The notes under the pieces are model-generated. The model had not been told where the DNA came from and did not search any database. It was given only the letters and a program-made list of their open reading frames with translations. A stretch of DNA of 64,000 nt, taken from Fabrea salina. Its lineage: Eukaryota > Ciliophora > Heterotrichea > Heterotrichida > Fabreidae. The stretch lies in the NCBI GenBank assembly GCA_022984795.1, contig JALIHJ010000019.1:1-64000 (forward strand), given 5' to 3'. A program made the position numbers and the translations under genes. This document shows, piece by piece, positions 18,342-48,898 of the stretch. How positions within the stretch are numbered: position 1 is the stretch's first letter; each line of letters starts with the position of its first letter.

Positions 18342-19556
18342 TTAAGAAAGGTGAGAACTAATGAACTCTTGAATTCTGCTTAAGCACTCTTCAAGGACTC
18401 TTTTGGGGTGGCACAACACCACTCTAAAGGCTCCTTGACTCATAAAGGCTTCGGCAGGCATAACCAGAACTCCTTGTTCTCTAGCTAGTTTTTCAGCAAA
18501 TTCTTTGGAACTTGCTATGTCTCTGAAGGCACTTTGTTCGACCATCACTAAGCAGTACAGTGCTCCTTCTGGCATAGTCATGCTTAGTCCAGGGATGTTT
18601 TGGACTTTGTTGTAGACCAGTTCCGCCCTTTCCTTGACTTTTTCCATGACGCTTTCAATGTAGTTGTCAGGCAAGTTCTGGAAGATCTCAGGAACAGCCT
18701 TGCAAATAAAGGGCACAGGGTGCAAAAGCATGTTTTTCACTTTTAAAATGCTTTCGCGGATTTGTTTGCACAGGCTTAATTTGTCGTAAATCATAGTCCA
18801 GCCACAGCGCCACCCTGGAACTAAAAACATTTTGCTAAGTGCAGTCACAGAAAACACAGGCACTTCTTCAGTCAGTGACCCCAAAGGGTAGTGCTTTTTT
18901 CCGTAAGTCATTCCGTTGTAAACTTCGTCAGCCAAAATACAAATCTTGTGTTCTTGGGCCCAGTTAAGGATTTCTAGCAAGTGTTCTCTGGAAAAAACAG
19001 TTCCGCAGGGGTTAGAGGGGTTAACAATCACTAGCAGCTTAGTTTTGCTGTCCACTAACGAATTCAGCTGTTCGAAGTCAATTTCCCAGTTGCTTTCTGG
19101 AACTAGCCTGTAGTACCTAGTTTCGGCACTTAAGTTGCCAGAAATGGTGTTGTACAAAGGGAACCCAGGGGAGGGTATAAGTATGTTGTCGCCTGGGTTC
19201 AGAAAAGCCTGCATAACTGTGTGGATGGCTCCAGAACCCCCCACGTCCATAATTACATCTTCGGCTGTGAGCTTAATGTTGTCGTAAGAAAACCTTTGGG
19301 CAAGGAACTCCCTTACGTCGGGAGGTCCCATAGAGTTGATGTACCCGTTGCCTTTTCCGGAACTCAGCAAGTTCTGCACACTTTTCACAGCTTCTTCGTG
19401 GACTTCGAAGTCCTCGTAAACAGAAGGGTCTCCTAAAGCCAGTGAGTAAGTGGGTTTGGGAAAATCTGGAGGCAAAATGATGTTTGAAACAGTTTCGCGG
19501 ATGGGGTTATTGGTGTTTTGGGAGTGAACTGACGCGGATATATTCCAACCTTCCAT
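18342..19556 (-). CDS. Class I/II PLP aminotransferase, tyrosine-aminotransferase-like (copy A)
   Basis: Fold type I aminotransferase of 404 aa. Seen: GNGYINSMGPPDVREFLA, GGSGAIHTVMQAFLNPGDNIL, NPSNPCGTVFSREH (with the Asn that contacts PLP), ADEVYNGM, and the lysine loop VTALSKMFLVPGWRCGW. The ALSK..LVPGWR loop matches tyrosine aminotransferases and related branches. The C-terminal Arg (FRVVLCHP) for substrate carboxylate binding is present. It is a tandem duplicate of the next gene upstream, 18 bp away, same length and same strand, but clearly diverged. Preferred amino acid unknown. Confidence 0.88.
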   Translation of the reverse strand: MEGWNISASVHSQNTNNPIRETVSNIILPPDFPKPTYSLALGDPSVYEDFEVHEEAVKSVQNLLSSGKGNGYINSMGPPDVREFLAQRFSYDNIKLTAEDVIMDVGGSGAIHTVMQAFLNPGDNILIPSPGFPLYNTISGNLSAETRYYRLVPESNWEIDFEQLNSLVDSKTKLLVIVNPSNPCGTVFSREHLLEILNWAQEHKICILADEVYNGMTYGKKHYPLGSLTEEVPVFSVTALSKMFLVPGWRCGWTMIYDKLSLCKQIRESILKVKNMLLHPVPFICKAVPEIFQNLPDNYIESVMEKVKERAELVYNKVQNIPGLSMTMPEGALYCLVMVEQSAFRDIASSKEFAEKLAREQGVLVMPAEAFMSQGAFRVVLCHPKRVLEECLSRIQEFISSHLS

Positions 19557-19574: not shown

Positions 19575-20789
19575 TTACTTAGAGTAAGCTTGGACAAATT
19601 CTTGAATTCGGTCCATGCTTTCTGCCAGGGCTTCTTCGGTGTGGCACAAGTTAACTCTAAAGGCGTCAGAGGCCATAAAAATTTCACAAGGAATAACCAA
19701 CACTCCATGCTCGTTTGCCAATTTCTTTGCAAAGTCCATTGAAGTTTCGATTCCTTGGAACTTAGAAAGGTCAATCTTAATCATGCAGTAAAAGGCCCCC
19801 TGAGGCATGTCCATGCTAAGTCCTTGGATGAACTCCACTTTTGAGTAAACTAACTCTGCCCTTTTTTTGATCTTGCTCATCATGTTCGGCATGTAGTCCT
19901 CCGGAATTTCCGACAGTATCCTTGGAAGGGCATTTGCAATGAACGGAGGAGGGTGCAGCAGCATGTACTTGATGCGGTTGATGGCTTCACGGACTTGGGT
20001 GAGTCTTTTGTACTTGTCATAAATAAGGATCCACCCACACCTCCAGCCAGGAACTAAAAAGGGTTTGCTCAAAGCTGTGACACTCACAACTGGGACTTCG
20101 TCGGTCAGAGAACCCATGGGAAAGTGCTCTCTGCCATAAACCATTCCGTGGTACACTTCGTCTGCAAAAACTACAATTTTGTGTCTGCGTGCCCAGTCAA
20201 GGATTTCTAAAAGGTGCTCTTTAGAAAACACAGTTCCACAGGGGTTGGAAGGATTAACTACAACGAGCAATTTAGTTCTTTCGTCAACTTGGCGGTCTAG
20301 GTCTTGGAAGTCAACTTTCCAGTTTTGGTCTGGCTTCAAAGCATAGGTTTTGCAGTCAGCACCTATGTTCCAGGCCATGGTTTTGAACCCTGGGTACCCT
20401 GGAGCTGGAATCAAAATGTTGTCACCTGCGTCCAGAAAGGCCTGGAGTGTAGTGTGCATTGCACCACATGCTCCGATGTCAATAACAACGTCTTGCCAAG
20501 TAAGTTGCATGTTTTCGTACGAAAATTTAGCTGCAAGGGCCTCTCTAGCTTCTCTGGGGCCCTCTGCATCAATGTAGCCATTTCCAGTGTAGGATTCAAG
20601 TTGTTCCTTGACTGCTTCAATTAGTACTGGATGCGCTGAAAATTCTGGAAACTTAGTAGGATCCCCTATGGCAAGGTTAAAGGTAGTTTTTGGGAACTCC
20701 GAAGGCAATGAAAGGTCACTCATTGTCTCTTTGATGAGGTTTCTGGTGTTCATAGCGTGTTGGGATCCAGGCACTACCCAGTCTTCCAT
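19575..20789 (-). CDS. Class I/II PLP aminotransferase, tyrosine-aminotransferase-like (copy B)
   Basis: Tandem paralogue of copy A with exactly the same length (404 aa). Seen: GNGYIDAEGPREAREALA, GACGAMHTTLQAFLDAGDNIL, NPSNPCGTVFSKEH, ADEVYHGM, the PLP lysine in ALSKPFLVPGWRCGW, and FRVNLCHT near the C-terminus. All catalytic features are intact in both copies, so both are probably active. Differences lie mainly in the N-terminal arm and the helix after the lysine loop (RLTQVREAINRIKYML), which shape substrate preference. Cytosolic by default, since no targeting signal is apparent. Confidence 0.88.
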   Translation of the reverse strand: MEDWVVPGSQHAMNTRNLIKETMSDLSLPSEFPKTTFNLAIGDPTKFPEFSAHPVLIEAVKEQLESYTGNGYIDAEGPREAREALAAKFSYENMQLTWQDVVIDIGACGAMHTTLQAFLDAGDNILIPAPGYPGFKTMAWNIGADCKTYALKPDQNWKVDFQDLDRQVDERTKLLVVVNPSNPCGTVFSKEHLLEILDWARRHKIVVFADEVYHGMVYGREHFPMGSLTDEVPVVSVTALSKPFLVPGWRCGWILIYDKYKRLTQVREAINRIKYMLLHPPPFIANALPRILSEIPEDYMPNMMSKIKKRAELVYSKVEFIQGLSMDMPQGAFYCMIKIDLSKFQGIETSMDFAKKLANEHGVLVIPCEIFMASDAFRVNLCHTEEALAESMDRIQEFVQAYSK

Positions 20790-35528: not shown

Positions 35529-35544
35529 TATTATACAGGCTTAA

Positions 35545-35927
35545 ATGGCAAAGTCTTTTATTCCTGTGGCTAGTGAACATCACTTCCCCGTCCAAAACAT
35601 TCCTTTTGGCACTGGCATCAAGCCTGGCGACTCCCTTCCCAGGTGTGTTTCCCGCATTGGAGACTTTGCAGTTGACCTCAAAGAGCTCGAGAACCAGGGC
35701 TTTTTTGCAGATGTTTTGCCTCACCCAGTGTTCCAGAGTTCCTTTTTGAACGACTTCATGAGTCTTTCAAGGACTCAGTGGGTGGGAGTGCGTGGGAAAC
35801 TGCAGCACTTACTGAGTGAAGATACACCTACTTTGAGGGACAACCAGGAGTTGAGGCAAGCTGTACTGGTTCCAATCGAGAACTTCACCAGCACTCTTCC
35901 TGTCCAAATTGGCGACTACACTGACTT
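35545..35927 (+). repeat. 383-bp perfect inverted repeat, left arm (FAH copy 1)
   Basis: Base-for-base identical to the reverse complement of 48404-48786, checked line by line. It begins at the ATG and ends at GACTT of the conserved DYTDF codons. Flanks differ immediately on both sides. Confidence 0.97.
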
Positions 35928-36804
35928 CAGCTCTTCAAAGCATCATGCTTTAAATCTGAGTTTTATGTTTGGTGGATCTAATAGTTCTCTAAGACCCAAC
36001 TGGTTAAGGCTCCCAGTAGCCTACCACAGCAGGGCTTCTAGTGTTAGAATTTCAGGACACCCAGTAACAAGGCCTAAGGGTCAAGTCAAACTTCCAGACA
36101 AAGAAGACTCAGTTTACCAAATCTCGGAGAAAGTAGACTACGAGTTGGAAATGGCCTTTTTCATAGGAGGAAAAGTCAATGAACTAGGACATCCTATTGA
36201 CGTAAACGAAGCCAAAGAAAGTATCTTTGGTTTGAGTTTACTAAACGACTGGTCTTCAAGGGACCTGAAAGTTTGGGAGTACGTTCCACTAGGCTGTTTT
36301 AACTCCAAAAACTTTATTTCAACAATATCGCCTTGGATAGTTACTTTGGAGGCATTAGAACCTTTTAAACAAAGTTTGCCTGCCCAAGACCCCCAGCCTC
36401 TTCCCTACCTCAACGAAACTGACCACTCCTCCTACAATATTAAACTTGAAACCTTTATTCAAACTCCTTCGCTTGAGCAGCCACACAAAATATCAGTTTC
36501 CAACGCCCTTAATTTGTACTGGTCAATCACCCAGCAGCTAGCCCACCATACTGTTACAGGGTGCAACTTAAGGCCAGGAGATATGATGGGAACTGGGACT
36601 ATTTCAGGCCCAGGCAATGACAGTATGGGGTGCCTGCTTGAAATCACATACGACGGAAAACAGTGCCTAGAACTGCCAAACGGGGAACGAAGAGTTTATT
36701 TGGAGGATGGAGACTCAGTTACTCTCAAGGCATTTTGCTCTGGAGAAGGCTACACAGTAGGATTTGGCGAGTTGACTTCGCAAGTTGTTCCAGCTAGGCC
36801 TTAA
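35545..36804 (+). CDS. FAH: Fumarylacetoacetase-like protein, copy 1 (substituted active site)
   Basis: 419 aa, full FAH fold: an N-terminal SH3-like domain and a C-terminal catalytic domain. Last step of tyrosine catabolism (fumarylacetoacetate to fumarate and acetoacetate). Metal ligands are kept: DYTDF, ELEMAFF with two Glu, and NDWSSRD. The catalytic His (KHHALN), the Lys after PLG and the Tyr of AYHSRASS also remain. Compared with mammalian FAH numbering, however, Tyr128 is Ser (DFSSS), Arg142 is Gly (MFGG) and Gln240 is Lys (RDLKVW). All three are substrate contacts that copy 2 retains. Its first 383 bases are identical to copy 2, an apparent gene conversion. Activity on the usual substrate is doubtful. 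Confidence 0.9.
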   Translation: MAKSFIPVASEHHFPVQNIPFGTGIKPGDSLPRCVSRIGDFAVDLKELENQGFFADVLPHPVFQSSFLNDFMSLSRTQWVGVRGKLQHLLSEDTPTLRDNQELRQAVLVPIENFTSTLPVQIGDYTDFSSSKHHALNLSFMFGGSNSSLRPNWLRLPVAYHSRASSVRISGHPVTRPKGQVKLPDKEDSVYQISEKVDYELEMAFFIGGKVNELGHPIDVNEAKESIFGLSLLNDWSSRDLKVWEYVPLGCFNSKNFISTISPWIVTLEALEPFKQSLPAQDPQPLPYLNETDHSSYNIKLETFIQTPSLEQPHKISVSNALNLYWSITQQLAHHTVTGCNLRPGDMMGTGTISGPGNDSMGCLLEITYDGKQCLELPNGERRVYLEDGDSVTLKAFCSGEGYTVGFGELTSQVVPARP

Positions 36805-36822
36805 TTATAACTTTTAAATACT

Positions 36823-38061
36823 ATGGCAAACAAGTACTTGAAGCAGTTCCCAGTTCCAGGCAGTTTCCCCAATGTTTTAAGGGACCTTACAAGGGAGATT
36901 CTCAGACTTCAACCCAGAGACATAGTTGGGTTTTCTGCACACTACTTTAAATGCTTGGAAAACGGTCAAGACTTCGTGTGGGACGACCCCAATCCCCGGG
37001 CACCTAGGCCGTGTGACTACCCTAAAGTGAAGTCGCAGTCTGGAATTCAAAAACCTGTGAAGCCCAAAGAAGCTGCTCCTAAACCCAGTCCAAAATCCAT
37101 GAGTCACATAACTGAAGAGAAGCTTAAAAAATACAGAGAAGCTTTTCAAAATTTTGACAAGGACAACAGTGGAGGTGTTAGTAAAGACGAGTTAAGAGAA
37201 GTAATGAAGTCACTAGGAGCGGACCCTAGCAATGAAGAACTTGAAGAAATGGTTAAAGAAGTGGATCTAGACGAAAATGGGTTGATTGGCTTCGAAGAGT
37301 TTGCAGATCTTATGCACAGAAAGGAGAAACAACAAAGCCAGTCGAACGATGAAATTCTTGATGCATTTCGAACATTTGACAGAGATAGAAGTGGGTTAAT
37401 AACCCGTGCTGAATTGTTGCATGTTATGGAAATTCTAGGCGATCCACTCAGTCAAGAGGAAGTTAATGAAATGATTCAAGAAGCTGACATGGATAAGGAC
37501 GGCTGTATCAACTACGAAGAGTTTGTGAGAATGATGACTGGAACCCAAGAACCTCAAGAAACTGGAGAAGCGCCTCAAACTGAAGAAGTTAAACAAGATC
37601 CTGCAGAAGCTCAACAAGAAACTCCAGAACAACCCTCAGAAGTCCAAGCAGAAGTTAAACAAGAAACTCCAGAACAACCCTCAGAAGTTCAAGCAGAACC
37701 GCCTCAGACCGAAGAAGTTAAACAAGAACCAGAGGCTCAAAAAGAAACACCTCAAACTGAAGAAGTTAAACAAGATCCTGCAGAAGCTCCACAAGAGCCA
37801 CCTCAAACTGAAGAAGTTAAACAAGAGCCACCTCAAACTGAAGAAGTTAAACAAGAGCCACCTCAAACTGAAGAAGTTAAACATGCAGAAGCTTCACAAG
37901 AACCACTTCAGACTGAAGAAGTTAAACAAGAGCCAGAGGCTCAAAAAGAAACACCTCAAACTGAAGAAAATCAAGAACAGCCCTCTCAAGTCCAAGCAGA
38001 GGCTCCAAAAGAAACACCTCAAACTGAGGAAACTCAACAAGAAGCCCAAGCAGAAGCTTAA
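36823..38061 (+). CDS. RSP7-like radial spoke protein: RIIa domain, four EF-hands, repeat tail
   Basis: Residues 10-45 ([20 protein letters not shown]) form an RIIa dimerisation/docking domain like that of protein kinase A regulatory subunits. Four calmodulin-type EF-hand loops follow at 112-123, 148-159, 186-197 and 222-233 ([48 protein letters not shown]), all with Asp at position 1 and Glu at 12, so all should bind Ca2+. The tail (241-412) is a Pro/Glu/Gln/Thr repeat based on [10 protein letters not shown]. RIIa plus EF-hands is the architecture of radial spoke protein 7 in cilia. Same-strand neighbours are FAH copy 1 and the USP. Confidence 0.82.
37560..38050 (+). repeat. Coding tandem repeat, 30-bp unit
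   Basis: Encodes the [10 protein letters not shown] tail. The unit CCTCAAACTGAAGAAGTTAA(ACAAGAGCCA) occurs as two exact and one nearly exact copy at 37801-37890, with diverged copies on both sides. Likely to vary in copy number between strains. Confidence 0.9.
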
Positions 38062-38092
38062 TCATGTAAGGGAATTTATTCTAAGATATATT

Positions 38093-39079
38093 ATGGACAC
38101 AGAAAGGCTGCCAGTGTCATCTAAACTAAGACCGCATGGACTAAGGAACTCAGGGAATGCATGCTTTTTAAACTGTTCAGTGCACTTGTTGATGTGCTTA
38201 GGACCCTTAAACTCAATAACTAACAACAACTACGGAGACTTTACCTCCGCACTAAAAGAAGCGTACACAGCAACCTCTTTACTAGTGCCCAACTCAGCCT
38301 TTTGGAGAGTGACAGAACTGTACCTAGGCTACTCTCCCCGGGTTTTGCAACAAAACTGCGCAGGAGAGTTTCTGAGGTTTTTCTTGGAAATGCTCAACTC
38401 AGAAATTAAGGAACACTGGCCTAGGAGACAAGACCCTGACTCTTGGGTGGAAGTAAGTAACAGACACGAGCCAGAAAGTGTGAGTTTAAGAGCCCAGGGA
38501 GACAGCATTTTGTACGACATGCTGGGACTGTGCTTGAAAACTGAGTACACTACCAAACGGACTGTTTCGTACAGCTTCCAAGAAGAACTTATTCTGAGTC
38601 TGCAACTTGAAGACAAACTCACCACAGCTCTGCAAAAAGCCTTTGAAAGCAGGGAGATCACTGACTACGAAGCTGAAGGAGTGCGCACTACTTGCAAAGC
38701 AAGGTCCTTAATTGCTAACTTCACTCCTTTTTTATTGATGCAGTTGCAAAGGTTCCAGATCGTTGAAGGCACTGTGCAGAAGCTCAACCAGCGCATGAGT
38801 TTTCCGCCTAAGTTCACGATTCCTAAGAAGTTTTGCACGCCTACTTTGCAAGCACAGGTAGAAAGAAAACAAAAGTTGCCTCCTGAGTACGAACTCAAAG
38901 CACTTGTGGAACACCACGGAGCAACTGTAAACTCAGGCCACTACACTGCCATAGTTAAGCGGAAAGACGACTGGGTGCTTATAGACGACAACTTAGTAAA
39001 GCCAATTTCAAACGAAGCAGTGGCAAGAGCTAGACCTTACCTTTTGCTGTACCAACAAGTTTGCAAGAAGACATTGTAA
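38093..39079 (+). CDS. Ubiquitin-specific protease (USP, peptidase C19)
   Basis: 328 aa. Cys box GLRNSGNACFLNCSVHLLMCL (catalytic Cys in NACF) and His box YELKALVEHHGATVNSGHYTAIVKR..WVLIDD with the catalytic His in SGHY and the acidic residue after it. The order and distance fit a minimal USP core. The zinc-finger Cys pairs of the fingers region are not evident, as in several small USPs. The CDS starts at the MDTERLPV methionine. The same frame is open farther left, but there it overlaps the RSP7-like gene in another frame and is not real. Confidence 0.85.
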   Translation: MDTERLPVSSKLRPHGLRNSGNACFLNCSVHLLMCLGPLNSITNNNYGDFTSALKEAYTATSLLVPNSAFWRVTELYLGYSPRVLQQNCAGEFLRFFLEMLNSEIKEHWPRRQDPDSWVEVSNRHEPESVSLRAQGDSILYDMLGLCLKTEYTTKRTVSYSFQEELILSLQLEDKLTTALQKAFESREITDYEAEGVRTTCKARSLIANFTPFLLMQLQRFQIVEGTVQKLNQRMSFPPKFTIPKKFCTPTLQAQVERKQKLPPEYELKALVEHHGATVNSGHYTAIVKRKDDWVLIDDNLVKPISNEAVARARPYLLLYQQVCKKTL

Positions 39080-39105
39080 TTGTTCCAGTAACACATATAT
39101 TAACA

Positions 39106-40575
39106 TTACTTCCTTCTATTCAAAATTGGCCTGAAAGACTTTAAGCTCAAGCGAGGAGGAGTTCTGCATAGACTAGCAACTACAGAACCTGTGCGTGGAG
39201 TTGACTTAGGAGGGGGCTGGTAGTACTCGTCTTCTTCAGGCACAGGGTACAGGTTGTTAGAGTACTCACTGGCTGTGGACATTTCTGTAAAGGTTTCGCT
39301 TTTGCTGCGGGTGTGCTTGCTTCCTTCTTTGACCCATTCGTTGAAAAGCAGTACCTTTTTGCCTTGTTCTATGTAAAGAATTCCGTTTTTCACGAAAAGA
39401 TGCACTGTTTCTTTGTTAATTCTGTAAATGTTATCAGTGACTTTTTCTATTTGGGGTGGAAGAGTCATGGACCTGGTAACGTTGTCCAGCAGTTCCTCTA
39501 TACTGGGTTCTCTGACTACTATTTCTTCTGAGTAGTCTCCTACCCATTCTTTGAGTTTGCTTTCTAAAAGTCCACATTCTGCTTGCAGTTCGTTGTTGAA
39601 TTCGTGGGCGTAGTCTAGTTGTTTCATGGCTTCGCGGGTGAGTTTGGTTTGTTCTTCGTAGGAAAATTTTAGGTTCGAAAGTTCGTTTTCTAAGTCGTGT
39701 ATTTTGGTTTTTAGGTACTCTTGGTCTTCTTGGGCGTTTTTGAGTTTTTGCAGTTTAAGTTCGCTTTCGTTGTACTTATTTTGGCTTTCGAGGACTGTTA
39801 CTTTGTTTTTGAGGTTTGAGATTTCTGAGTGGAGTTTGGACTTTTCGTCTTCAGTTTGTTTGAGTTGCTGGATGAGTTGGGTTTCTCTAGACTTCCAAGA
39901 CTCTAATTCTTGGGCGTAAGTATTTGCTAGTTTGTTGTACTGAGCCATGATTGCTTGGCGCTTAGCCTTTTCTTTTCGAACTAAGTCAGTTTCTTTTAGT
40001 GTTTGTGACTCAGATAAGTCTTCACGGAGTTTTTCTATGATGTCACACAGTTCACTTATTCTAGAGTCGTAGTGGACTTTTAGTTTCTCGATTTTGCTGA
40101 GTAAAGACACTCTAGAAAGTTCACAGACATTAAGTTGTTCTTGGAGTTTGGTGTTGTTTTCAGACCTTTTTTTTTCAAACTCTAAGTTGCGCTTAGCTGA
40201 ACTTAAGTTGTCTTTTAAAGTCTCGGTTTCACTTGGTTGTGAGTTTGATTCAACAAATTCGTACTTTACTTCAATCCAAGTCTTTTGCAACTGGTTATTT
40301 TTGTTAAGTTGCAATTGAGCAGTAGAGGAGTTGTTTTCCCATCGGTCTTTTAGTTGGTGCATTTCAATAAAGGCTTCTCCTGGAGAGTTTTCTTCAACGA
40401 CTAAGTCAACTACTGAAATCTTCAAAGTGCCTTCTGAGTACTTGAACCACTCTATGTCGTTAGGTTCAATTTCTGTGTAGACATCCAACAAAGTGTTTTG
40501 GATGTAAAGGTAAAATGCAAGGTCCTTTTCTGAGTGCTCAGAACTAATTCTTGAAATCGTTAAGCGGAACTCCAT
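39106..40575 (-). CDS. C2-like/coiled-coil protein, 489 aa
   Basis: The first 110 residues are beta-rich (FRLTISRISSE.., TLKISVVDLVVEENSPGEAFIEMHQL) and could be a C2-like domain of the kind found in centriole and transition-zone proteins. Residues about 120-340 form a long coiled coil. The C-terminus is Ser/Thr/Pro-rich and basic (PPPKSTPRTGSV..PILNRRK). A basal-body role is a guess; no specific family is recognised. Its ATG immediately follows the TAA of the upstream gene with no base between (AAA TAA ATG). Confidence 0.7.
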   Translation of the reverse strand: MEFRLTISRISSEHSEKDLAFYLYIQNTLLDVYTEIEPNDIEWFKYSEGTLKISVVDLVVEENSPGEAFIEMHQLKDRWENNSSTAQLQLNKNNQLQKTWIEVKYEFVESNSQPSETETLKDNLSSAKRNLEFEKKRSENNTKLQEQLNVCELSRVSLLSKIEKLKVHYDSRISELCDIIEKLREDLSESQTLKETDLVRKEKAKRQAIMAQYNKLANTYAQELESWKSRETQLIQQLKQTEDEKSKLHSEISNLKNKVTVLESQNKYNESELKLQKLKNAQEDQEYLKTKIHDLENELSNLKFSYEEQTKLTREAMKQLDYAHEFNNELQAECGLLESKLKEWVGDYSEEIVVREPSIEELLDNVTRSMTLPPQIEKVTDNIYRINKETVHLFVKNGILYIEQGKKVLLFNEWVKEGSKHTRSKSETFTEMSTASEYSNNLYPVPEEDEYYQPPPKSTPRTGSVVASLCRTPPRLSLKSFRPILNRRK

Positions 40576-41571
40576 TTATTTAAGTTTTCTTTTTTTAGAA
40601 GGGGTTTTGTTGATAGCGAAGTGGTGCTTAATTTTCCAGTACTTGCGATTTGAAACAGGGGGCAAGTCTTTCCAGTGGATTTGTTCAGGAGTCTCTTCAA
40701 TGGTTTCAGTAGGCAAGTAGTCTTTAGGAAGTCTTTTTTCTCTTCTAGCAAGTTTGGTTTCGAAGTCCTTTTTGTTGTACTTAGCAACTGACTTGGGTTG
40801 GGTTCTGAGTTTTTCAGGCAACAAGTACTCAGGAACTGAAGCTAGGTGTCTGGGAGGTTTCTTTTTTTTCTTGGCTTCTTTCAAGATTTGTTTGTCTTGT
40901 GGGTTGAAATCCAGTTGGTTTTTGAGGTTTTTGGAACCAAGAAGTGCTTTTTTCACGTCGTTCATTCTTTCGTTGTGGACTGTTTTCTCAGTGATTGAAC
41001 GAAGGATGTCTTCACAGCGGTACCTGAACCTTTCGAATTCGCCCATTCTGAGGTTGAGTTCTTCGAGCTGGGGAGTCCCTTTTTTTTGGTTGCGAGAGTT
41101 GAGTTTTTGCAGTCTTTTGTGGTCTTCTGGAAGCACCAAGCTGAGGATAGACATGTTGTTGTTGCACTCAGCGTTGAGGTCTTCAACTCTTTTGCGGTAA
41201 AGTTTGGTTCTGCTGGGGAAGTCGAAGTTAATCAGCACAGACACTGAAGTTTTAAAGACTTTAACTCGTTCAGTTCCTTTGTTTTGGCTTTGTTTTTCAT
41301 CAGGGTCGACTACTATTAAGTAGTTGATGTTTTTGTTGACGAAGTTGGACACAGCTAAGTGCCTTGTTGACTTGGGATGCTCGTAGTTGAGCAGAAGCGA
41401 GTGCATGTGGAACTCTTCTAAGAACAACTTAACTTTGTAGCCAGTTTCTACTGTGTTGGTGTAAATTAAAACTTTGCCTGAAATCAGTCCGAGTTTCAGA
41501 AGTGTGTACAGAACTATGTAGCGGTCGTTCTCTTTGGAAATGTTTAAGTACACATCTGTGTGACTATCCAT
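40576..41571 (-). CDS. Dbp9/DDX56-like protein, RecA2 half only, catalytic motifs lost
   Basis: 331 aa. YIVLYTLLKLGLISGKVLIYTNTVETGYKVKLFLEEF matches the start of the second RecA lobe of DDX56/Dbp9 (a ribosome-biogenesis DEAD-box helicase). The family-specific tail is also present: GEFERFRYRCEDILRSIT, KNQLDFNPQDKQILK, HLASVPEYLLPEKLR and a basic end. The N-terminal lobe with motifs Q to III is absent, and an in-frame TAA precedes the ATG. The motif V region (ARGID) is gone, and motif VI (HRAGRTAR) is replaced by YRKRVEDLNAE. It cannot be an ATPase alone. It may be a scaffold, or the partner of a lobe encoded elsewhere. Confidence 0.8.
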   Translation of the reverse strand: MDSHTDVYLNISKENDRYIVLYTLLKLGLISGKVLIYTNTVETGYKVKLFLEEFHMHSLLLNYEHPKSTRHLAVSNFVNKNINYLIVVDPDEKQSQNKGTERVKVFKTSVSVLINFDFPSRTKLYRKRVEDLNAECNNNMSILSLVLPEDHKRLQKLNSRNQKKGTPQLEELNLRMGEFERFRYRCEDILRSITEKTVHNERMNDVKKALLGSKNLKNQLDFNPQDKQILKEAKKKKKPPRHLASVPEYLLPEKLRTQPKSVAKYNKKDFETKLARREKRLPKDYLPTETIEETPEQIHWKDLPPVSNRKYWKIKHHFAINKTPSKKRKLK

Positions 41572-41580
41572 TTATTATAA
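41572..41580. promoter_or_regulatory. 9-bp divergent intergenic site between two ATGs
   Basis: Only TTATTATAA separates the start codons of the Dbp9-like gene (minus) and the LYR gene (plus). With the starts the site is near-palindromic: CCATTTATTATAAATGGG. It looks like a shared TATA/initiator element. Promoter signals must overlap the opposite coding region. Confidence 0.5.
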
Positions 41581-41931
41581 ATGGGCTGGAACCCTGGTTT
41601 GGCTTTTTACAGAAGAATGATCAAAGCCCTGCGCTTGAAGTTCGAAGGTGACTCCAAAACTTATGGGCAGTTCAAGTACGCCATCAAGATGGAAACTCTT
41701 TCGCACAAAGAAGAAAAAGACCAAGTTAAACTTTCCAAAATGATTTACGACTTCGACGTAGCTCGTGAGTGGCTTCTCAAAGACGTCATGCGTGCAGACT
41801 TGCAAGAAGACGGCAAGTACAAACTAAGAGTCAACAAAGAACAACTCCAAGGCACTGAAGTCAAGCCAGTCAAGAACCCGCACTACTTTGAATTTGACCT
41901 TCCTCCTGAACTCATACAGAATGCTAATTAG
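41581..41931 (+). CDS. LYR-motif mitochondrial protein, 116 aa
   Basis: The N-terminal helix MGWNPGLAFYRRMIKALRLKF has the LYR-type pattern (here FYR) followed by basic and aromatic residues. It is followed by helices with YDFDVAREWLLKDVMRADLQ. LYR proteins are small three-helix mitochondrial factors that bind the acyl carrier protein and assist assembly of respiratory complexes or iron-sulfur transfer. Which subfamily is unclear. Its stop TAG overlaps the stop of the convergent kelch gene (TTAG at 41928-41931). Confidence 0.6.
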   Translation: MGWNPGLAFYRRMIKALRLKFEGDSKTYGQFKYAIKMETLSHKEEKDQVKLSKMIYDFDVAREWLLKDVMRADLQEDGKYKLRVNKEQLQGTEVKPVKNPHYFEFDLPPELIQNAN

Positions 41932-43784
41932 ACTCTATTAGTGATTTCTTCAATTTCAATTTCTTCCCAAAACCGAGTGTTTAAGTCAAGTTTGTACAAA
42001 TCGCCGCAACTTGAAAAAATGTACCCATAGTCCCCCCTGACGCAAGGCGGGTCGTTGAACTCCAACACTGAAGAGTTCCCTGGCAGGTCTTCTCTTTTAT
42101 GGAGGTTTTTCCCATCAAACTCAAAAGAAGCTTTGAAGGGGTTTCCTTCTTCGTCTTCACCCCCAAAGATTATCAAACTCGCACTCAGAGGCAAGATTCC
42201 CATGCCTTTGCAGGGGACTTCGTAAGTTAGTTCTAGTTTGGACCACTTCATAGTGTTGGTTTTGTAGACTTGAACTATGCTAACTAGTTCTTCGTAGCCG
42301 TCGTTGCTGAGTCTTTCTCCTCCAAAGGTGTAAATGTCCTCTTTGAAGATGCTTACAGAGGGGTAGCGGATGTTTTCCATTTCAGAGTTCATTTCGTACC
42401 AAGTCTTGTCTGTGAGACTGAAAACGTAGTTAAACACCTTTGGGGAAGAGTCGTCAAAGCCAGCTACAGCGTAGACGTACTGTAGGTTGGAGTTAACTGC
42501 TAAACGCATTCCCCGCAGGTTCCTGGGGAGCTCGGGGGTTTCGAACTCTTGTTTTGTAGCTGTGTCAAACATGAAGCACAGGTTAGTGGTGCTGTAGGTT
42601 TCTGGGTCGTAGCCACCTACAAAGAACAGGTTGCCTTGGGGCAGAGTGACCATTCCACAGTCAAGGTACTTGATTTTGGAGAGTTGGCAGGAGTGCTTTT
42701 CTTCAGAGAGGTTGTTAAACGAAACTAAGCACATTGTGTTGATGTTGGAGTGGTACACGTTTAAGCTTTTATCCCTTGGCTTCAAGGACTTTGCTATCTC
42801 TTCAAAGTTGGGTTCGTCCAAGCAAGCGTTAATGGACTGTTCTGTGAACTCAAGAGTTTGGACATCGAATTTAAGAAGAAACCCAGAATCTGTGTTGAAG
42901 TAAATGGCTTTTTTCGAAGGAAAAGCTGGAGCTAAGATTTGTTTGTCACTGGTGTTGTTAGCTAGGTTTTGGAACTGGTTGTCTTTGAGTATGTAAGCTT
43001 TGCCAGAGTGAGCACCTTCTAGGTTCTCTCCTCCAAATATAAGTATGTTGTCGTTGAAACAGTGCACAATCGATTTAAAAGTTGGAAGTGAAAACTTAAG
43101 TCCGCTGTAAGTCCAAGTTGCTTGTTGGATGTCGTAGACCTGAATAGACTCACTAGGAGTCATCTCTCCTTCTAAGCTCCTGAAGCCCCCTGCTGAGTAG
43201 ATCTTGTCACCGTGCAGGTAGCATGTTGGACAGCACAGAAGTTCGGGCATCTGTGCTAAACTTTCCCACTCGTTTTTCACAAGGTTGAAGCTTGCAAAAT
43301 GGCCTTGCACAAACTCACTGTCGTCGTTTTCGTCAATGTCTTTTTTCATAAGGCCTCCTACAGCGTAGACTTTTTGGTGGCGTTCTGAGTAAAGCAAAGT
43401 TTGGGAACAGGTAGGCACTGGCAAGGAACTTAGTTTGACTCCTGTTAGTTGGGAAGCTTCCAGCAGCATGCAGTCGTCTACAAGTTCTCCTTCGTCGGTT
43501 CCACCTGCCAGCAGAAACCTGAACTCGCTGATTCTAACTATGCCTGCGTCTTGTCTGAAGCTGAAGGGCAAAGAAAGTTTTAGTTGGTAAGCTTTGTTGG
43601 AAGAAGAGTTGAAGAAAAGCATCGAGCGGGTGTTGGGAAGAGGTTTGAAAACCAAAACTTTTTCAGGAGGTTCTGAAGGTCTGGGGGGTTGGTTGGTGGG
43701 TCTAGGTGGGTTAGTTGACTGTTTAGGGTTCTGAGGGGGTTTTTGTGGTTTTTTTGCCTGTTGTTTGCCGCAGCAGTTTCCCAT
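41928..43784 (-). CDS. Kelch-repeat protein with acylated N-terminus, 618 aa
   Basis: The start MGNCCGKQQ has Gly2 followed by Cys residues, a classic dual myristoylation/palmitoylation signal, so membrane attachment is expected. A Pro-rich linker follows. From about residue 50 onward kelch blades appear (RFLLAGGTDEGE, QKVYAVGGLMKKD, DKIYSAGGFRS, DNILIFGGENLEG, LFFVGGYDPETYST, DIYTFGGERLSNDGYEE, LIIFGGEDEEGNPF), consistent with one or two beta propellers. The partner is unknown. It is a large family in ciliates. Confidence 0.85.
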   Translation of the reverse strand: MGNCCGKQQAKKPQKPPQNPKQSTNPPRPTNQPPRPSEPPEKVLVFKPLPNTRSMLFFNSSSNKAYQLKLSLPFSFRQDAGIVRISEFRFLLAGGTDEGELVDDCMLLEASQLTGVKLSSLPVPTCSQTLLYSERHQKVYAVGGLMKKDIDENDDSEFVQGHFASFNLVKNEWESLAQMPELLCCPTCYLHGDKIYSAGGFRSLEGEMTPSESIQVYDIQQATWTYSGLKFSLPTFKSIVHCFNDNILIFGGENLEGAHSGKAYILKDNQFQNLANNTSDKQILAPAFPSKKAIYFNTDSGFLLKFDVQTLEFTEQSINACLDEPNFEEIAKSLKPRDKSLNVYHSNINTMCLVSFNNLSEEKHSCQLSKIKYLDCGMVTLPQGNLFFVGGYDPETYSTTNLCFMFDTATKQEFETPELPRNLRGMRLAVNSNLQYVYAVAGFDDSSPKVFNYVFSLTDKTWYEMNSEMENIRYPSVSIFKEDIYTFGGERLSNDGYEELVSIVQVYKTNTMKWSKLELTYEVPCKGMGILPLSASLIIFGGEDEEGNPFKASFEFDGKNLHKREDLPGNSSVLEFNDPPCVRGDYGYIFSSCGDLYKLDLNTRFWEEIEIEEITNRV

Positions 43785-43822
43785 TTTAAATAAATACTAA
43801 AACATTATTGGGACTTACTTAA

Positions 43823-44458
43823 ATGGAAGCTATTGAGTTCCCAGACGTTTATGACTTGTTCCAGACCTACAACTTTCAGTTCTTCGAAGGCAAGTTAGGA
43901 GCAGTGCAACTGACTTGGAGCAAAAGGATGACCCTGTGCGCGGGAATCTGCGAAAAGAAACAGGGACTTATAACTATAAAGCTTTCAGAACCCCTGCTTA
44001 AGTACAGAACTGCAAGTGATGTCAAAGAAACCCTACTGCACGAAATGATCCACGCTTACCTTTGGGTACTGAACATTCCTTCAGGCAGAGATGGGCACGG
44101 ACCTGAGTTTTTAAGTGTGATGTTTTACGTTAACCAAAAAACCAACTTAAATGTAACAGTGCGGCATAACTTTTCGGACGAGGTTGACTACTACCGCAAA
44201 CACGTTTGGAGATGTGATGGAGTTTGCAAAGACTGGAAGCCTTTCTTTGGGTACGTGAAGAGAGCTATGAACAGAGCTCCTTCTAGCAGAGATCACTGGT
44301 GTAAGTGATATTTAGGGGCTAGGCACCAAAGTCAGTGCGGAGGTGTGTTTCACAAAGTTTCTGAACCACTGCCTCAAAAAAGGAAACTCCAAAACCAACC
44401 CAGAATCACTAAGTTCATCAAAAACAACCAAGAAAAGAAACAAGGTAATTACAGTTAA
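43823..44458 (+). CDS. SPRTN: Spartan (SPRTN) DNA-protein crosslink protease, one 15-nt intron
   Basis: Exon 1 is 43823-44300 and exon 2 is 44316-44458, giving 206 aa. SprT zinc protease core: KETLLHEMIHAYLWVLN (HExxH) and GHGPEF with the third ligand. The zinc-binding tail WRCDGVC..PFFGYVKRAMNRAPSSRDHW is completed only by splicing, which adds WARHQSQCGGVF (human: WWAEHQKTCGG). Without the intron the reading ends at a TGA inside it. It is close to human SPRTN over the SprT domain, but the long C-terminal SHP/PIP/UBZ tail is absent. It repairs DNA-protein crosslinks during replication. Confidence 0.93.
44301..44315 (+). other. 15-nt intron in SPRTN
   Basis: GTAAGTGATATTTAG. Splicing joins T|GG into the second Trp of the conserved WWA and restores the C-terminal zinc ligands. 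Unspliced message meets TGA within the intron. Confidence 0.93.
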
Positions 44459-44568
44459 TTAGTTCTTCCAAATAATGCTAGCAAACCAAATGTATAAATA
44501 ACTGCAGAAAAGCATGTTCCTACTTTAATGCCTAATATTTGCTTGGAGTTTAAGTCGAAGTACTTTAT

Positions 44569-45264
44569 CTAAGTAAACCTTACACAAAGCAACCCTAATG
44601 CACTAAAAAAGACTCCAACTGCGGCTCCCCAAATAAAGTCAAAAAAGTCTCCATTGCTAAAAGTTTCTTCATCTAGTATGTGTGCTCTGTCTAATGAGTT
44701 AGAATTGATAGCTGGCAAGTTGCCTTCCATCCACTTGTTCTCCAAAGCAATCTTTTGTTCTTCAGAACTGCTGAGGTACCCTGAGTAGCTGCACATAGCT
44801 TGAAAGTGGTACCTCAGATTCTGGATGTCGTCAGAATTGAACCCTGAAGACTCTAGTCTGCCTATTCCTCTGTAGCGCGATGTGCTTCTTGGAGATAATT
44901 GTTCTTGGGCCGAAACCTGGTCTGAAACTAAAGCATGTATAAAAGACTGGTCTTTTAGGTCTGCTTAAAACTCACTGTGATAACTTAAAGGTGTTTCGTC
45001 GTGCATTAACTTCCCCGAAAAGACAAGACGGACTCTTTTGTTGTTTTTGAGTTCTTCGGAGAAAAGCTAAGTAGTAAGTACTAGTTCTTTCAAAGTCAGC
45101 CCTGTTGAATTATTAGGATCAACTTCAATAGTTCGAAGATCAGAGTCAGTTACTTTAACGTTGAGTGTTATGAGTGGAGTGGTTTTGCCGTAGTCCTCCG
45201 TTTGTTCTTGTTCAGACACAAAACTAGGGTTCTCAGACTCGTCAATTACTTCGTATGACTTCAT
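44569..45264 (-). CDS. Dsc3-like ubiquitin-like-domain membrane protein, two 15-nt introns
   Basis: Exons 45264-45082, 45066-44976 and 44960-44569 give 221 aa. The N-terminal half is a ubiquitin-like domain (TPLITLNVKVTDSDLRTIEVD..TLKELLFSEE..KRVRLVFSGKLMHDETPL). The middle has GIGRLESSGFNSDDIQNLRYHFQ, the signature of the Dsc3/DUF2407 C-terminal domain. Near the end is a membrane span (FFDFIWGAAVGVFFSALGLLC). Dsc3 is part of a Golgi/endosomal membrane ubiquitin ligase. The domain order matches exactly. Each exon alone looks like an unrelated small frame. The ATG is 14 bp from the divergent gene. Confidence 0.85.
44961..44975 (-). other. 15-nt intron 2 of the Dsc3-like gene
   Basis: GTGAGTTTTAAGCAG on the coding strand, phase 1 (A|AC). 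It has the only CAG acceptor among the four introns. Removal connects the ubiquitin-like half to the Dsc3 C-terminal domain. Confidence 0.88.
45067..45081 (-). other. 15-nt intron 1 of the Dsc3-like gene
   Basis: GTACTTACTACTTAG on the coding strand, phase 0 (CTA|CTT). Removal extends the ubiquitin-like domain in frame. Confidence 0.88.
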
Positions 45265-45278
45265 ATTTAAACTCTAAA

Positions 45279-45983
45279 ATGGAAAGCGAAAAGATATGCT
45301 TGCACAAAGAACAAGAAGATACAAACAAGTACCTAAGCGTTCCTCAAAAACCCTGGAACTCTGAACTGCTTTGGGCAGTTGCTCAAATCAAGCAAAAAAG
45401 GAGCCAAGCTAAAGAAACCAACTTTAAGTGCTTGAACGATTACTACAAAACCTACTCCCAAATCAAAAGGGTCATTGATAACCAGTTTAACTTCATCAAA
45501 AAAAAGATAGACTCAGTTGAAGTCCAAAACGACAAACTAGAACAAGTTTACCTCGAAAAGTACACAGAACTCCTCCAAAGCAACTCTGAAGAGACTCAAG
45601 ATGTACTAGCAAACCTAAGGTTCAAAAGCTTTGCCCATACAGGATGTCCTATAAACCCCAAAGCTATGTCTTACTCTTTAGGCCAGATTCGCATCAAAGA
45701 CTCCACAACCCACATCAATAACACAACAGAAGTCACAGGCAGCCAGGACTCGAAGTTCTTAAAAACCTGGTTCATCCGTAAAGGCACAGAAGAAGTTAAG
45801 CTGCCAGGCTGGGTAAGCAGAGACATTGACAAAGCCGTCAGAGAAGGCTACCAACAAAAACCACTTCTGAACTTATCTGGCAAAGTAGTATACTTCGTTG
45901 ACATTAAAAATGGACTCATAACTACGTTTGACAAACAAGGCAACCTCCAAAACACTTACCAAGTCTTATACTACATAAACTAA
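45279..45983 (+). CDS. Coiled-coil protein with possible WWE-like C-terminus, 234 aa
   Basis: Helical N-terminal 110 residues (WNSELLWAVAQIKQKRSQAKETNFKCL..) with heptad character. The last 60 residues (LPGWVSRDIDKAVREGYQQKP..VVYFVDIKNGLITTFDKQGNLQNTYQVLYY) are beta-like and faintly resemble a WWE domain, but this is weak. I prefer the ATG at 45279 over the upstream in-frame ATG at 45255, because the latter overlaps the start of the divergent Dsc3-like gene and 45279 has the usual A/T-rich leader. The stop overlaps that of the convergent RING gene. Confidence 0.65.
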   Translation: MESEKICLHKEQEDTNKYLSVPQKPWNSELLWAVAQIKQKRSQAKETNFKCLNDYYKTYSQIKRVIDNQFNFIKKKIDSVEVQNDKLEQVYLEKYTELLQSNSEETQDVLANLRFKSFAHTGCPINPKAMSYSLGQIRIKDSTTHINNTTEVTGSQDSKFLKTWFIRKGTEEVKLPGWVSRDIDKAVREGYQQKPLLNLSGKVVYFVDIKNGLITTFDKQGNLQNTYQVLYYIN

Positions 45984-46519
45984 TAGTAGTCTTCGTCTGA
46001 GTCAATCTCTAAAGGCTGGGGTTCAGGAATTAGTTCTGGAGGTACGTTTCCGTTCATGACCATTTTTAGTTTGGAGTCTAGGTCGTACACTTCAGTCAGC
46101 AACTCTTCAGGGTTAAACTGGACGTAGTTGTGGTTCTGTTCAGTTAGGGTCTGTATTCTTTCAGACAAAGCCCTGAGTAACTTCCACTCGTGGGGTTGTC
46201 CGGGTGAGTTCCTTTGTTTAAAGCGCCTTATTTCTATGTCATAAGCAAGGCGTGAAAGCTTAGCTAGTTCGTTTCTGAAGTAAGAGTGGTCTAGACAGTC
46301 AAGGGACTGCACAGGTTGGGAAGTGCCTGGTTTCAAAACTAGTTCTTTTTTAGAGTCTTCTTCTGTTACCAAAGAGGCTTTTCCTAGTTCACTGCTGCAA
46401 ACAGGACATTTAGAGTGTTCTTCACACCACTTTTGGATGCACTTTTGACAGAAAACGTGGGTGCACTCCAGTTCGCAGTAAGGAACAGCGACTTCGCCCA
46501 GGCATATTACGCAGTTCAT
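45980..46519 (-). CDS. Small RING-HC ubiquitin ligase, 179 aa
   Basis: The N-terminal RING finger CVICLGEVAVPYCELECTHVFCQKCIQKWC..CPVC has the C3HC4 pattern at about residues 4-41. The rest is helical, with RIQTLTEQNHNYVQFNPEELLTEVYDLDSKL, and ends acidic (EIDSDEDYY). Probably an E3 ligase with an unknown target. Stop codons of this gene (TAG) and the convergent gene (TAA) overlap in CTAA at 45980-45983. Confidence 0.82.
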   Translation of the reverse strand: MNCVICLGEVAVPYCELECTHVFCQKCIQKWCEEHSKCPVCSSELGKASLVTEEDSKKELVLKPGTSQPVQSLDCLDHSYFRNELAKLSRLAYDIEIRRFKQRNSPGQPHEWKLLRALSERIQTLTEQNHNYVQFNPEELLTEVYDLDSKLKMVMNGNVPPELIPEPQPLEIDSDEDYY

Positions 46520-46545
46520 TTATAAGCAACTAACATAATTTTTAA

Positions 46546-47493
46546 ATGGGAAATTCTTGTTCGTGCATAGGAAGTTCCACGAATGTAGAAGAGAATGCAG
46601 ATGTTGTGCTTGAAGAAGTTAAGTCTAAAGCCAAAGTTGAGTCAATAAAATATGAATCCAGTACAGACAAAAAGTTAGAAGTTGATATTTACCCTAGCAA
46701 AAGCGAAAAAGCCAGAATTGCTGAGAACAGAATGGGCACGTTCAAGTGGCTGAACAACGAACCACCTGAGTTAGGGGAACCTTTGAGGTCTGAAGAAGGG
46801 TGGACTTATATTGGACAATCTAATGCAGATGGACTGAAAGAAGGCAAAGGCATCTTTTTGTGGGAAGATGGGTCTAAGTATACTGGTTACTTCAAAAACG
46901 GCAGAGCTAACGGGTGGGGGCGCTTAGTCCACGCAGACGGGGACCTGTACGAAGGAGACTGGGTTAACGACATGGCAGAGGGCAAAGGCAAGTACATTCA
47001 CTTTGACGGAGCCACTTACGAAGGCGAGTGGGCCAAAGACAAACAAGAAGGATACGGAGTTGAAACCTGGACGGACGGGGCGTACTACAAAGGTTACTAC
47101 AAAGAAGGACTCAAGCACGGGTTTGGGGAGTTCCACTGGGCAGACCGTTCGATGTACAAAGGAGAGTTTTCGAACAACAACATTGAAGGAAGGGGACTGT
47201 ATGTGTGGAACGACGGCAGGAAGTACGAAGGCGAGTGGGCGAACAACAAAATGCACGGCCAAGGCAAGTTTATCTGGCCTGACGGCAGAGTTTATAAAGG
47301 GTCTTATGAAAAGGACAAGAAGCAAGGTTACGGAGAGTTCTTTTGGCCAAACGGCAAAAAGTACTCTGGGTACTGGAAAAACGGAAAGCAGCACGGAAGA
47401 GGTACTTTCGTTAACGAGTTCGGGGTTTCTCAGGAAGCTGAGTGGGTCAAAGGCAAAAGAGTCAAGGTCTATAATGACATCCCTACAAAGTAG
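46546..47493 (+). CDS. MORN-repeat protein with acylated N-terminus, 315 aa
   Basis: Starts MGNSCSCIGSS, a myristoylation (Gly2) and palmitoylation (Cys5, Cys7) signal. From about residue 85 there are about nine MORN repeats of 23 residues (for example YEGDWVNDMAEGKGKYIHFDG, YKGSYEKDKKQGYGEFFWPNG). MORN proteins form elongated hairpin rods that bind membranes or cytoskeleton in cilia and cortex. It is divergent from the RING gene with a 26-bp gap. Confidence 0.88.
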   Translation: MGNSCSCIGSSTNVEENADVVLEEVKSKAKVESIKYESSTDKKLEVDIYPSKSEKARIAENRMGTFKWLNNEPPELGEPLRSEEGWTYIGQSNADGLKEGKGIFLWEDGSKYTGYFKNGRANGWGRLVHADGDLYEGDWVNDMAEGKGKYIHFDGATYEGEWAKDKQEGYGVETWTDGAYYKGYYKEGLKHGFGEFHWADRSMYKGEFSNNNIEGRGLYVWNDGRKYEGEWANNKMHGQGKFIWPDGRVYKGSYEKDKKQGYGEFFWPNGKKYSGYWKNGKQHGRGTFVNEFGVSQEAEWVKGKRVKVYNDIPTK

Positions 47494-47508
47494 TATTTAA
47501 TTCATAAC

Positions 47509-48786
47509 TTAATTATGAAAGTATTTGTCCTGGAGAGCAGGAGTGACTTTGGAAATAACTTCTCCGAAACCGATTGTATAGCCCTCCCCTGTGCAAGCTC
47601 CTGTAAGAATTAGCTCGTCTCCGTCTTCCAAAAAGGTTCTTTTTTCTCCACTGGGCAACTCAATGGGGTTCTTGCCAGCCCAAGTCAACTCGAGCAGACA
47701 GCCTAAACTGCTTTGGTCAGGACCTGAAATAGTTCCAGTTCCCATCATGTCTCCTACTCTCAAGTTGCACCCTGACTCAGTGTGGTGGGCTAGCTGCTGG
47801 GTGATTGACCAGTACAAGTAAAGCATGTTTGACTCAGAAATTTTGTGAGGAGCTTCCATTGAAGGAGTTTTAATCAAACTGTCCAGTCTGATGTTGTAGG
47901 AGGAGTGGTCAGTTTCGTTGAGGTAGGGAAGAGGCTGGGGGTCTTGGGCAGGCAAACTTTGTTTAAAAGGTTCTAATGCCTCCAAAGTAACTATCCAAGG
48001 CGATATTGTTGAAATAAAGTTTTTGGCATTGAAAGGTCCTAGAGGAACGTACTCCCAAGCCTGGAGGTCCCTGGCTGACCAATCGTTGAGGAGTGCTAAT
48101 CCAAAGATACTTTCTCTGGCTTCGTTTACGTCAATAGTTTCTCCTAGTTCATTGACTTTTCCTCCTATGAAAAAGGCCATTTCCAACTCGTAGTCCACTC
48201 TTTTGCTTGCGGTGAACAAAGGCTCTGGTGCATCTGGTGGCTTGACTTGGCCTCTGGGTCTGCGCACTGGATGCCCTGAGATCACTATGCTTGATGCTCT
48301 TCCGTGGTATCCTACGGGCAAGCGTGTCCAATTAGGCTGAAGAGCGTTTTCAGGACCTCTGAACATCGAGCCAACGTTAAAGGCGTGGTTTTTGGATGCG
48401 TAAAAGTCAGTGTAGTCGCCAATTTGGACAGGAAGAGTGCTGGTGAAGTTCTCGATTGGAACCAGTACAGCTTGCCTCAACTCCTGGTTGTCCCTCAAAG
48501 TAGGTGTATCTTCACTCAGTAAGTGCTGCAGTTTCCCACGCACTCCCACCCACTGAGTCCTTGAAAGACTCATGAAGTCGTTCAAAAAGGAACTCTGGAA
48601 CACTGGGTGAGGCAAAACATCTGCAAAAAAGCCCTGGTTCTCGAGCTCTTTGAGGTCAACTGCAAAGTCTCCAATGCGGGAAACACACCTGGGAAGGGAG
48701 TCGCCAGGCTTGATGCCAGTGCCAAAAGGAATGTTTTGGACGGGGAAGTGATGTTCACTAGCCACAGGAATAAAAGACTTTGCCAT
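47509..48786 (-). CDS. FAH: Fumarylacetoacetase, copy 2 (canonical active site)
   Basis: 425 aa, close to animal FAH. All known active-site residues appear to be kept: DYTDFYASKNHAFNVGSMFRG (Asp, Tyr, catalytic His, Arg), GYHGRASS, ELEMAFF, NDWSARDLQAWEYVPLGPF with Gln and the Lys that follows, and GTISG. This is likely the working enzyme of tyrosine breakdown. It lies 10.7 kb beyond copy 1 (gene end to gene end), in inverted orientation, sharing 383 identical bases at the 5' end and another identical block in the middle. Confidence 0.95.
   Translation of the reverse strand: MAKSFIPVASEHHFPVQNIPFGTGIKPGDSLPRCVSRIGDFAVDLKELENQGFFADVLPHPVFQSSFLNDFMSLSRTQWVGVRGKLQHLLSEDTPTLRDNQELRQAVLVPIENFTSTLPVQIGDYTDFYASKNHAFNVGSMFRGPENALQPNWTRLPVGYHGRASSIVISGHPVRRPRGQVKPPDAPEPLFTASKRVDYELEMAFFIGGKVNELGETIDVNEARESIFGLALLNDWSARDLQAWEYVPLGPFNAKNFISTISPWIVTLEALEPFKQSLPAQDPQPLPYLNETDHSSYNIRLDSLIKTPSMEAPHKISESNMLYLYWSITQQLAHHTESGCNLRVGDMMGTGTISGPDQSSLGCLLELTWAGKNPIELPSGEKRTFLEDGDELILTGACTGEGYTIGFGEVISKVTPALQDKYFHN
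48404..48786 (-). repeat. 383-bp perfect inverted repeat, right arm (FAH copy 2)
   Basis: Exact reverse complement of 35545-35927. The identity starts at the ATG and stops within the DYTDF codons. Bases upstream of the ATG differ from copy 1 apart from the AA before it. Confidence 0.97.
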
Positions 48787-48898
48787 TTATAAAGAATAAG
48801 CTGATTTCTAATGGTAGACTTAAATCAGGCATGACCATAAAACTAAGATTCTGATTGGTCAAATTAAGTCTAAAATAGCCAATAGATTCTTAATTAAA
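48787..48898. promoter_or_regulatory. Divergent promoter region with CCAAT pair
   Basis: This 112-bp space is long for this window. It holds an inverted pair of CCAAT-type words (ATTGG at 48854-48858, CCAAT at 48879-48883) and TATA-like A/T tracts next to both start codons (TTTATAAATGG for FAH, TTAATTAAAATG for the thioredoxin gene). Function is inference. Confidence 0.3.

Follow-up and report, generated by a model that had tools for sequence, protein, structure and literature searches.

Two inverted fumarylacetoacetase genes of Fabrea salina share a patchwork of identical and silently saturated segments

A facing pair of FAH genes

We analysed a window of 64,000 bases of Fabrea salina DNA that opens contig C14 (293,964 bases, in a genome of 18,328,466 bases and 103 contigs) and carries two genes for fumarylacetoacetase (FAH) that face each other. 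Both were assigned to this enzyme with Pfam and NCBIfam models. A search of the genome for the FAH family returned three matches, namely copies 1 and 2 in the window and a third copy on another contig, C50. All three exceeded the curated cut-off of 375.3 bits for TIGR01266 (copy 1, 507.4; copy 2, 559.1; third copy, 469.6 bits). The sequences upstream of copies 1 and 2 showed no similarity, with 10 of 60 bases alike.

Identical runs of at least 20 bases were counted in the codon alignment of copies 1 and 2, and measured 383, 54, 21, 133 and 35 bases. The 383 identical bases from the ATG that the first-pass annotation had described were found at 35545-35927, and the identity extended a further 3 bases upstream, for a total of 386 (block B1). 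The same annotation had reported two later stretches of about 130 and about 35 bases, which we measured as 133 and 35 (B3 and B4); it had not noticed an additional block of 54+21 bases at 36136-36189 and 36194-36214 (B2). When the 383-base block was searched against the genome it gave two matches, which are FAH copies 1 and 2. The divergent segments of the two copies (D1 to D4) are together 62.5% identical in DNA. Coordinates are collected in Table 1.

Table 1. FAH genes, identical blocks and divergent segments; positions are those of the window unless a contig is named.
Feature	Position	Strand	Character
FAH copy 1	35545-36804	+	intact 419-aa frame, mosaic, altered conserved residues
FAH copy 2	47509-48786	-	intact 425-aa frame, canonical residues, likely donor
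Third FAH paralog (L003)	C50:44533-45711		52% identical to copy 1
B1, copy 1 arm	35542-35927	+	386 identical bases; N-terminal domain, starting 3 bases ahead of the ATG and ending in the codon preceding Tyr128
B1, copy 2 arm	48404-48789	-	386 identical bases
B2	copy 1 36136-36214; partner 48117-48195	+; -	54+21 identical bases flanking a small differing patch
B3	copy 1 36305-36437; partner 47894-48026	+; -	133 identical bases
B4	copy 1 36514-36548; partner 47783-47817	+; -	35 identical bases; weakest block
D1, copy 1	35928-36135	+	55% DNA identity; Tyr128Ser 35929-35931, Arg142Gly 35971-35973
D2, copy 1	36229-36304	+	70% identity; Gln240Lys 36268-36270
D3, copy 1	36438-36513	+	65% identity; no recognised active-site residue
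D4, copy 1	36549-36801	+	66% identity over the part measured

Silent sites along the two genes

Silent divergence was scored at degenerate codons that specify the same residue in both copies. None of 199 such codons differed in the blocks, while 77 of 120 differed between them; seven others, at the junctions and among the four codons that end B2, were excluded from both sets (3 of the 7 differ). Random choice of codons at the contig's codon usage would give 73.2 differences where 77 were observed, so the silent sites of the divergent parts are saturated and no silent trace of common descent is left. Over the whole gene 80 of 326 codons differ, with runs of 124, 42, 27 and 12 among the identical ones. 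Shuffling this 326-codon set 20,000 times gave a longest run of 53. When the test was confined to the codons after 128 (201, of which 79 differ), neither the run of 42 nor that of 27 was equalled in any of 20,000 shuffles. The first-pass annotation had taken the alternation as the mark of gene conversion and had proposed scoring silent divergence along the genes. This divergence is not uniform: it is zero in the blocks and saturated between them, and the contrast of 0/199 with 77/120 strongly supports conversion between the two genes. Since zero and saturated silent divergence stand inside one 1.26-kb gene, we conclude that interlocus gene conversion acted upon an ancient duplication.

Constraint on the DNA itself was considered as a cause of the block identity and ruled out. 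Between copies 2 and 3, 117 of 203 codons differ across the whole gene where 118.6 are expected, which is saturation, and the two are 48% identical in DNA within B1; the blocks are therefore not constrained as DNA. Constraint within the family does not account for the identity either, because conservation is on average slightly lower in the blocks than in the divergent segments (mean family consensus frequency of 0.70 vs 0.75). Codon avoidance in the divergent segments was rejected overall by the same comparison of 77 differing codons with 73.2 expected; D1 alone is high, with a silent proportion of 0.94 and 28 differing codons vs 22.0 expected (standard deviation 2.7).

The silent-run test was applied across C14 (294 kb of 18.3 Mb), where 39 paralog pairs, defined by 35% identity or more over 60 aa, emerged from 252 non-overlapping stop-to-stop open reading frames of 70 aa or longer. 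The FAH pair ranked first of the 39 for clustering of silent identity. Two other pairs passed a 5% false discovery rate, both in one repeat-rich same-strand cluster near the far telomere, which by eye consists of WD40 repeats. The idea that conversion characterises the inverted pairs of C14 is thus unsupported, since of the 3 pairs in 39 that pass, the FAH pair is the one that is inverted and the other two lie on the same strand.

Within block B2 we counted 4 nonsynonymous differences and no synonymous one. Copy 1 has Pro at copy residue 217, as do most bacterial homologues (55 of 80), where copy 2 has Thr; at residue 216 it is copy 2 that has the commonest residue, Glu (58 of 80), and copy 1 has His. 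We read these differences as a putative small unconverted remnant. A preference of the block junctions for conserved motifs was also considered; over 7 junctions the signal was weak (p = 0.036 when 5 flanking residues were taken, 0.053 with 3).

Direction of transfer and the active site of copy 1

The bacterial comparison set consisted of the best 80 of 595 homologues that a copy 2 query had found. A tree of the divergent segments was calculated from the three FAH copies and every second of the 80 homologues (43 sequences), and in it copies 1 and 2 were sisters with a support of 0.96. Their branch lengths were 0.537 and 0.131, respectively; the protein of copy 1 evolved about four times faster than that of copy 2. 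We then compared the 133 columns that are at least 95% conserved across the 80 homologues. Within the blocks 51 of 55 are kept, and outside them copy 2 keeps 73 of 78, copy 1 58 of 78 and copy 3 62 of 78. Retention in and outside the blocks was alike for copy 2 (p = 1.0) and unlike for copy 1 (p = 0.0064); copy 3, which served as a control, showed no block effect (47/55 vs 62/78, p = 0.49). The better reading is that copy 2 was the donor and copy 1 the recipient, which these counts support moderately. The earlier suggestion that copy 1 is a copy being overwritten gains moderate support in the same way, in that the blocks are copy-2-like in the conserved columns.

Residues are given in human numbering, transferred by alignment with the human and Burkholderia enzymes. 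Copy 1 carries Ser, Gly and Lys in place of Tyr128, Arg142 and Gln240 (copy residues 129, 143 and 242), as had been noted, and copy 2 keeps all three of these substrate residues. They are invariant in 80 of 80 bacterial homologues and are also found in the human and Burkholderia enzymes. We take them to be substrate-side residues of FAH, a role for which a literature look-up gave no support. All three altered residues sit in unconverted segments (D1 and D2), and further conserved positions are changed in copy 1, including two prolines that have become cysteine. The frame of copy 1 is nevertheless intact, without stop or frameshift, and the metal-ligand positions are retained, as the first-pass annotation had claimed. 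Both copies keep the positions Asp126, Glu199, Glu201 and Asp233, which are presumably the metal ligands, His133, presumably the catalytic His, and Arg237, Tyr244, Lys253, Thr350 and Glu364. The third copy is gapped at Arg142 in the alignment and changed at several further conserved positions; since copy 1 is altered and the third copy lacks a residue aligned to Arg142, two of the three paralogs depart from the canonical pocket.

AlphaFold models of the two copies were alike (mean pLDDT 89.8 and 90.4), and the model of copy 1 matched mouse FAH (1qco) with a TM score of 0.96. Low model confidence near residue 250 might have indicated that the pocket of copy 1 is broken; this reading was rejected, because the same weak loop occurs in copy 2. 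Between copies 1 and 2, dN was ~0.29 and dS was saturated; with the frame intact, this shows past constraint. A second function for copy 1, which had been suggested before, may plausibly exist.

History, alternatives and setting

Taken as a whole, the data are best explained by an old inverted duplication of FAH followed by later conversion patches from copy 2 onto copy 1, and we consider this history probable. An FAH gene would have been duplicated in inverted orientation long ago in the present genome. The copies would then have diverged to silent saturation, with copy 1 losing three conserved substrate-side residues and retaining its frame, its metal-ligand and catalytic-His positions and its predicted fold. 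Later, patches of copy 2 would have been written onto copy 1 by interlocus gene conversion, in break repair with copy 2 as template, either in a number of short tracts or in a single discontinuous one. The islands left unconverted would still carry the altered residues of copy 1, and selection against restoring tracts may explain their survival. The repair route, the selection for the islands and any new activity of copy 1 are steps that we infer. Selection that shields the altered pocket is an attractive proposal because the last codon that B1 reaches is the one immediately ahead of Tyr128, and all three changes fall within D1 and D2.

Several points weigh against this history. Conversion acts mainly above 80% identity and is efficient with ~200 identical bases, and rare events need much less, according to PMC3924818. 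The divergent segments lie below ~80% identity and B2 to B4 are shorter than the ~200-bp efficient segment, B1 alone being long enough, so that the conversion route would be an unusual one. For B2 to B4, short template switches or a discontinuous event may account better for the pattern than steady conversion would; such routes are described in PMC3758752. The B4 run of 12 codons is not significant alone (p = 0.16 after codon 128, with a shuffle pool that also contains the other blocks), and the four nonsynonymous differences inside B2 are not explained for certain. D3 survives unconverted although it holds no recognised active-site residue. The direction of transfer rests on homologues found with the copy 2 query and without a close outgroup; these homologues lean to copy 2, since it was the query and Gln240 is present in one of the six peptides used for the search. 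The mosaic itself is known from the assembly consensus of one genome. Loss of mismatch repair was considered as a reason for the conversion and found no support, with 4 MutS and 2 MutL-type matches in the genome.

One alternative is that assembly or polishing software wrote one gene over the other, so that the mosaic would be absent from the cell. A 386-base repeat does exceed typical short reads, and the assembly is available as a consensus only. However, both frames stay intact through every switch, the four blocks are separated and some are far below read length, reads of copy 2 would hardly map onto a 62%-identical copy 1, and the telomere arrays at both ends of C14 suggest a long-read assembly; we give such an artefact little credence. 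If instead copy 1 were a recent copy of copy 2 that had been patched with divergent FAH pieces from a lost paralog or another species, then the divergent segments would be the transferred ones, and a two-source mosaic looks alike from either side. This is improbable, since the three family matches include no other FAH donor, the upstream sequences are dissimilar, unlike those of a fresh duplication, and no sequence in the tree set is closer to the divergent segments of either copy than those of the other.

The arms of B1 invite another explanation, in which they act as a functional inversion switch that exchanges promoters between two FAH isoforms. They are perfect and inverted, and upstream of them the sequences are unrelated. 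Inversion would leave both frames whole because the arms begin 3 bases before the start codons. The inversion of the 12.5 kb between the copies, which the first-pass annotation had raised, may be possible. A working switch is very improbable: Pfam named no recombinase in the 10 frames scanned between the genes (other frames there were unscanned), and B2 to B4 lie outside the arms and would be left unexplained. Finally, the conversion may be real and copy 1 without a function of its own, a gene in decay in which the renewal of the blocks was accidental. Its loss of 20 of 78 conserved columns outside the blocks, vs 5 of 78 in copy 2, and its faster evolution would fit decay. The absence of any stop or frameshift despite saturated silent sites, the dN of ~0.29 against saturated dS and the predicted fold close to that of mouse FAH speak against it, and we regard decay as unlikely. 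We are equally doubtful of a broader claim built on the conversion history, namely that this genome transfers short patches of tens to hundreds of bases between ~62%-identical paralogs, switching templates where motifs are conserved, and assembles chimeric enzymes in this way; in the present case that would be an FAH with its N-terminal domain and scaffold refreshed from the canonical gene and its rewritten pocket kept, possibly for another substrate.

The FAH pair is an unusually sharp instance of a known process, gene conversion, and not a new genetic system; what is unusual is the short perfect islands in DNA that is only 62.5% identical. The closest likeness is with GOT1p1/GOT1p2 (aspartate transaminase) of Tigriopus californicus, which PMC3728101 describes as linked intronless metabolic-enzyme paralogs with divergence islands among homogenised stretches, where conversion overlaps the low-divergence stretches and selection on the islands was proposed. 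Populations were compared there and one genome here, and the FAH islands, unlike those of GOT1p1/GOT1p2, are silently saturated with altered residues at conserved active-site positions. RH blood-group and opsin gene pairs, which the same paper names, likewise keep islands of difference despite conversion; in those pairs the functional difference is known, and in the FAH pair it would be a putative one. With respect to the solved mouse and human enzymes (TIGR01266), both copies are full-length by score and copy 1 also by fold, but copy 1 lacks the three invariant substrate-side residues. A limited literature search on gene conversion in fumarylacetoacetase genes and in ciliate paralogs found no such case. 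The pair offers a clean record of conversion between silently saturated paralogs, unexpected under the usual homology requirements, and two of its unconverted islands hold a changed substrate pocket; the pair makes it possible to ask if an altered active site can be protected by selection from overwriting. It is also a warning that a single gene can carry several histories and so mislead paralog trees.

The genome contains the tyrosine pathway in which copy 2 would act, since family searches found one homogentisate dioxygenase, one HPPD and seven matches to the maleylacetoacetate-isomerase model, three of them above the cut-off. The window also holds a tandem pair of tyrosine/nicotianamine-family aminotransferases (18345-19556 and 19578-20789, minus strand; 55% identical), so that a single telomeric window carries duplicated genes for both the first and the last step of tyrosine breakdown. 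No gene conversion was seen in this tandem pair (119 of 209 codons differ, longest run 7). C14 starts with TAACACCC repeats and has the complement at its other end (70 and 98 units counted in the outer 800 bases), and therefore runs from telomere to telomere.

Elsewhere on the contig, a second inverted pair (C14:67310-68560 and 106648-107898; L086, L090) is 98.3% identical over 1,251 bases, and a neighbouring matching stretch is only 69.6% identical; either whole-gene conversion or a newer duplication may account for this pair. A same-strand cluster of genes that look WD40-like by eye (C14:280874-288068; L107, L108) shows mosaic identity between its members. Near each chromosome end lies a P-loop ATPase-like gene (window 2686-4194, minus strand, with ATPase_2, AAA_22 and iSTAND matches in Pfam; C14:289709-291316, plus strand, L108); the two are 69% identical, and their silent-identity clustering gave p = 0.026 uncorrected. 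Adjoining copy 1 is an EF-hand gene whose repetitive 3' part (window 37538-38061, ~500 bases) is open in two frames, the second of which continues into a UCH-family peptidase.

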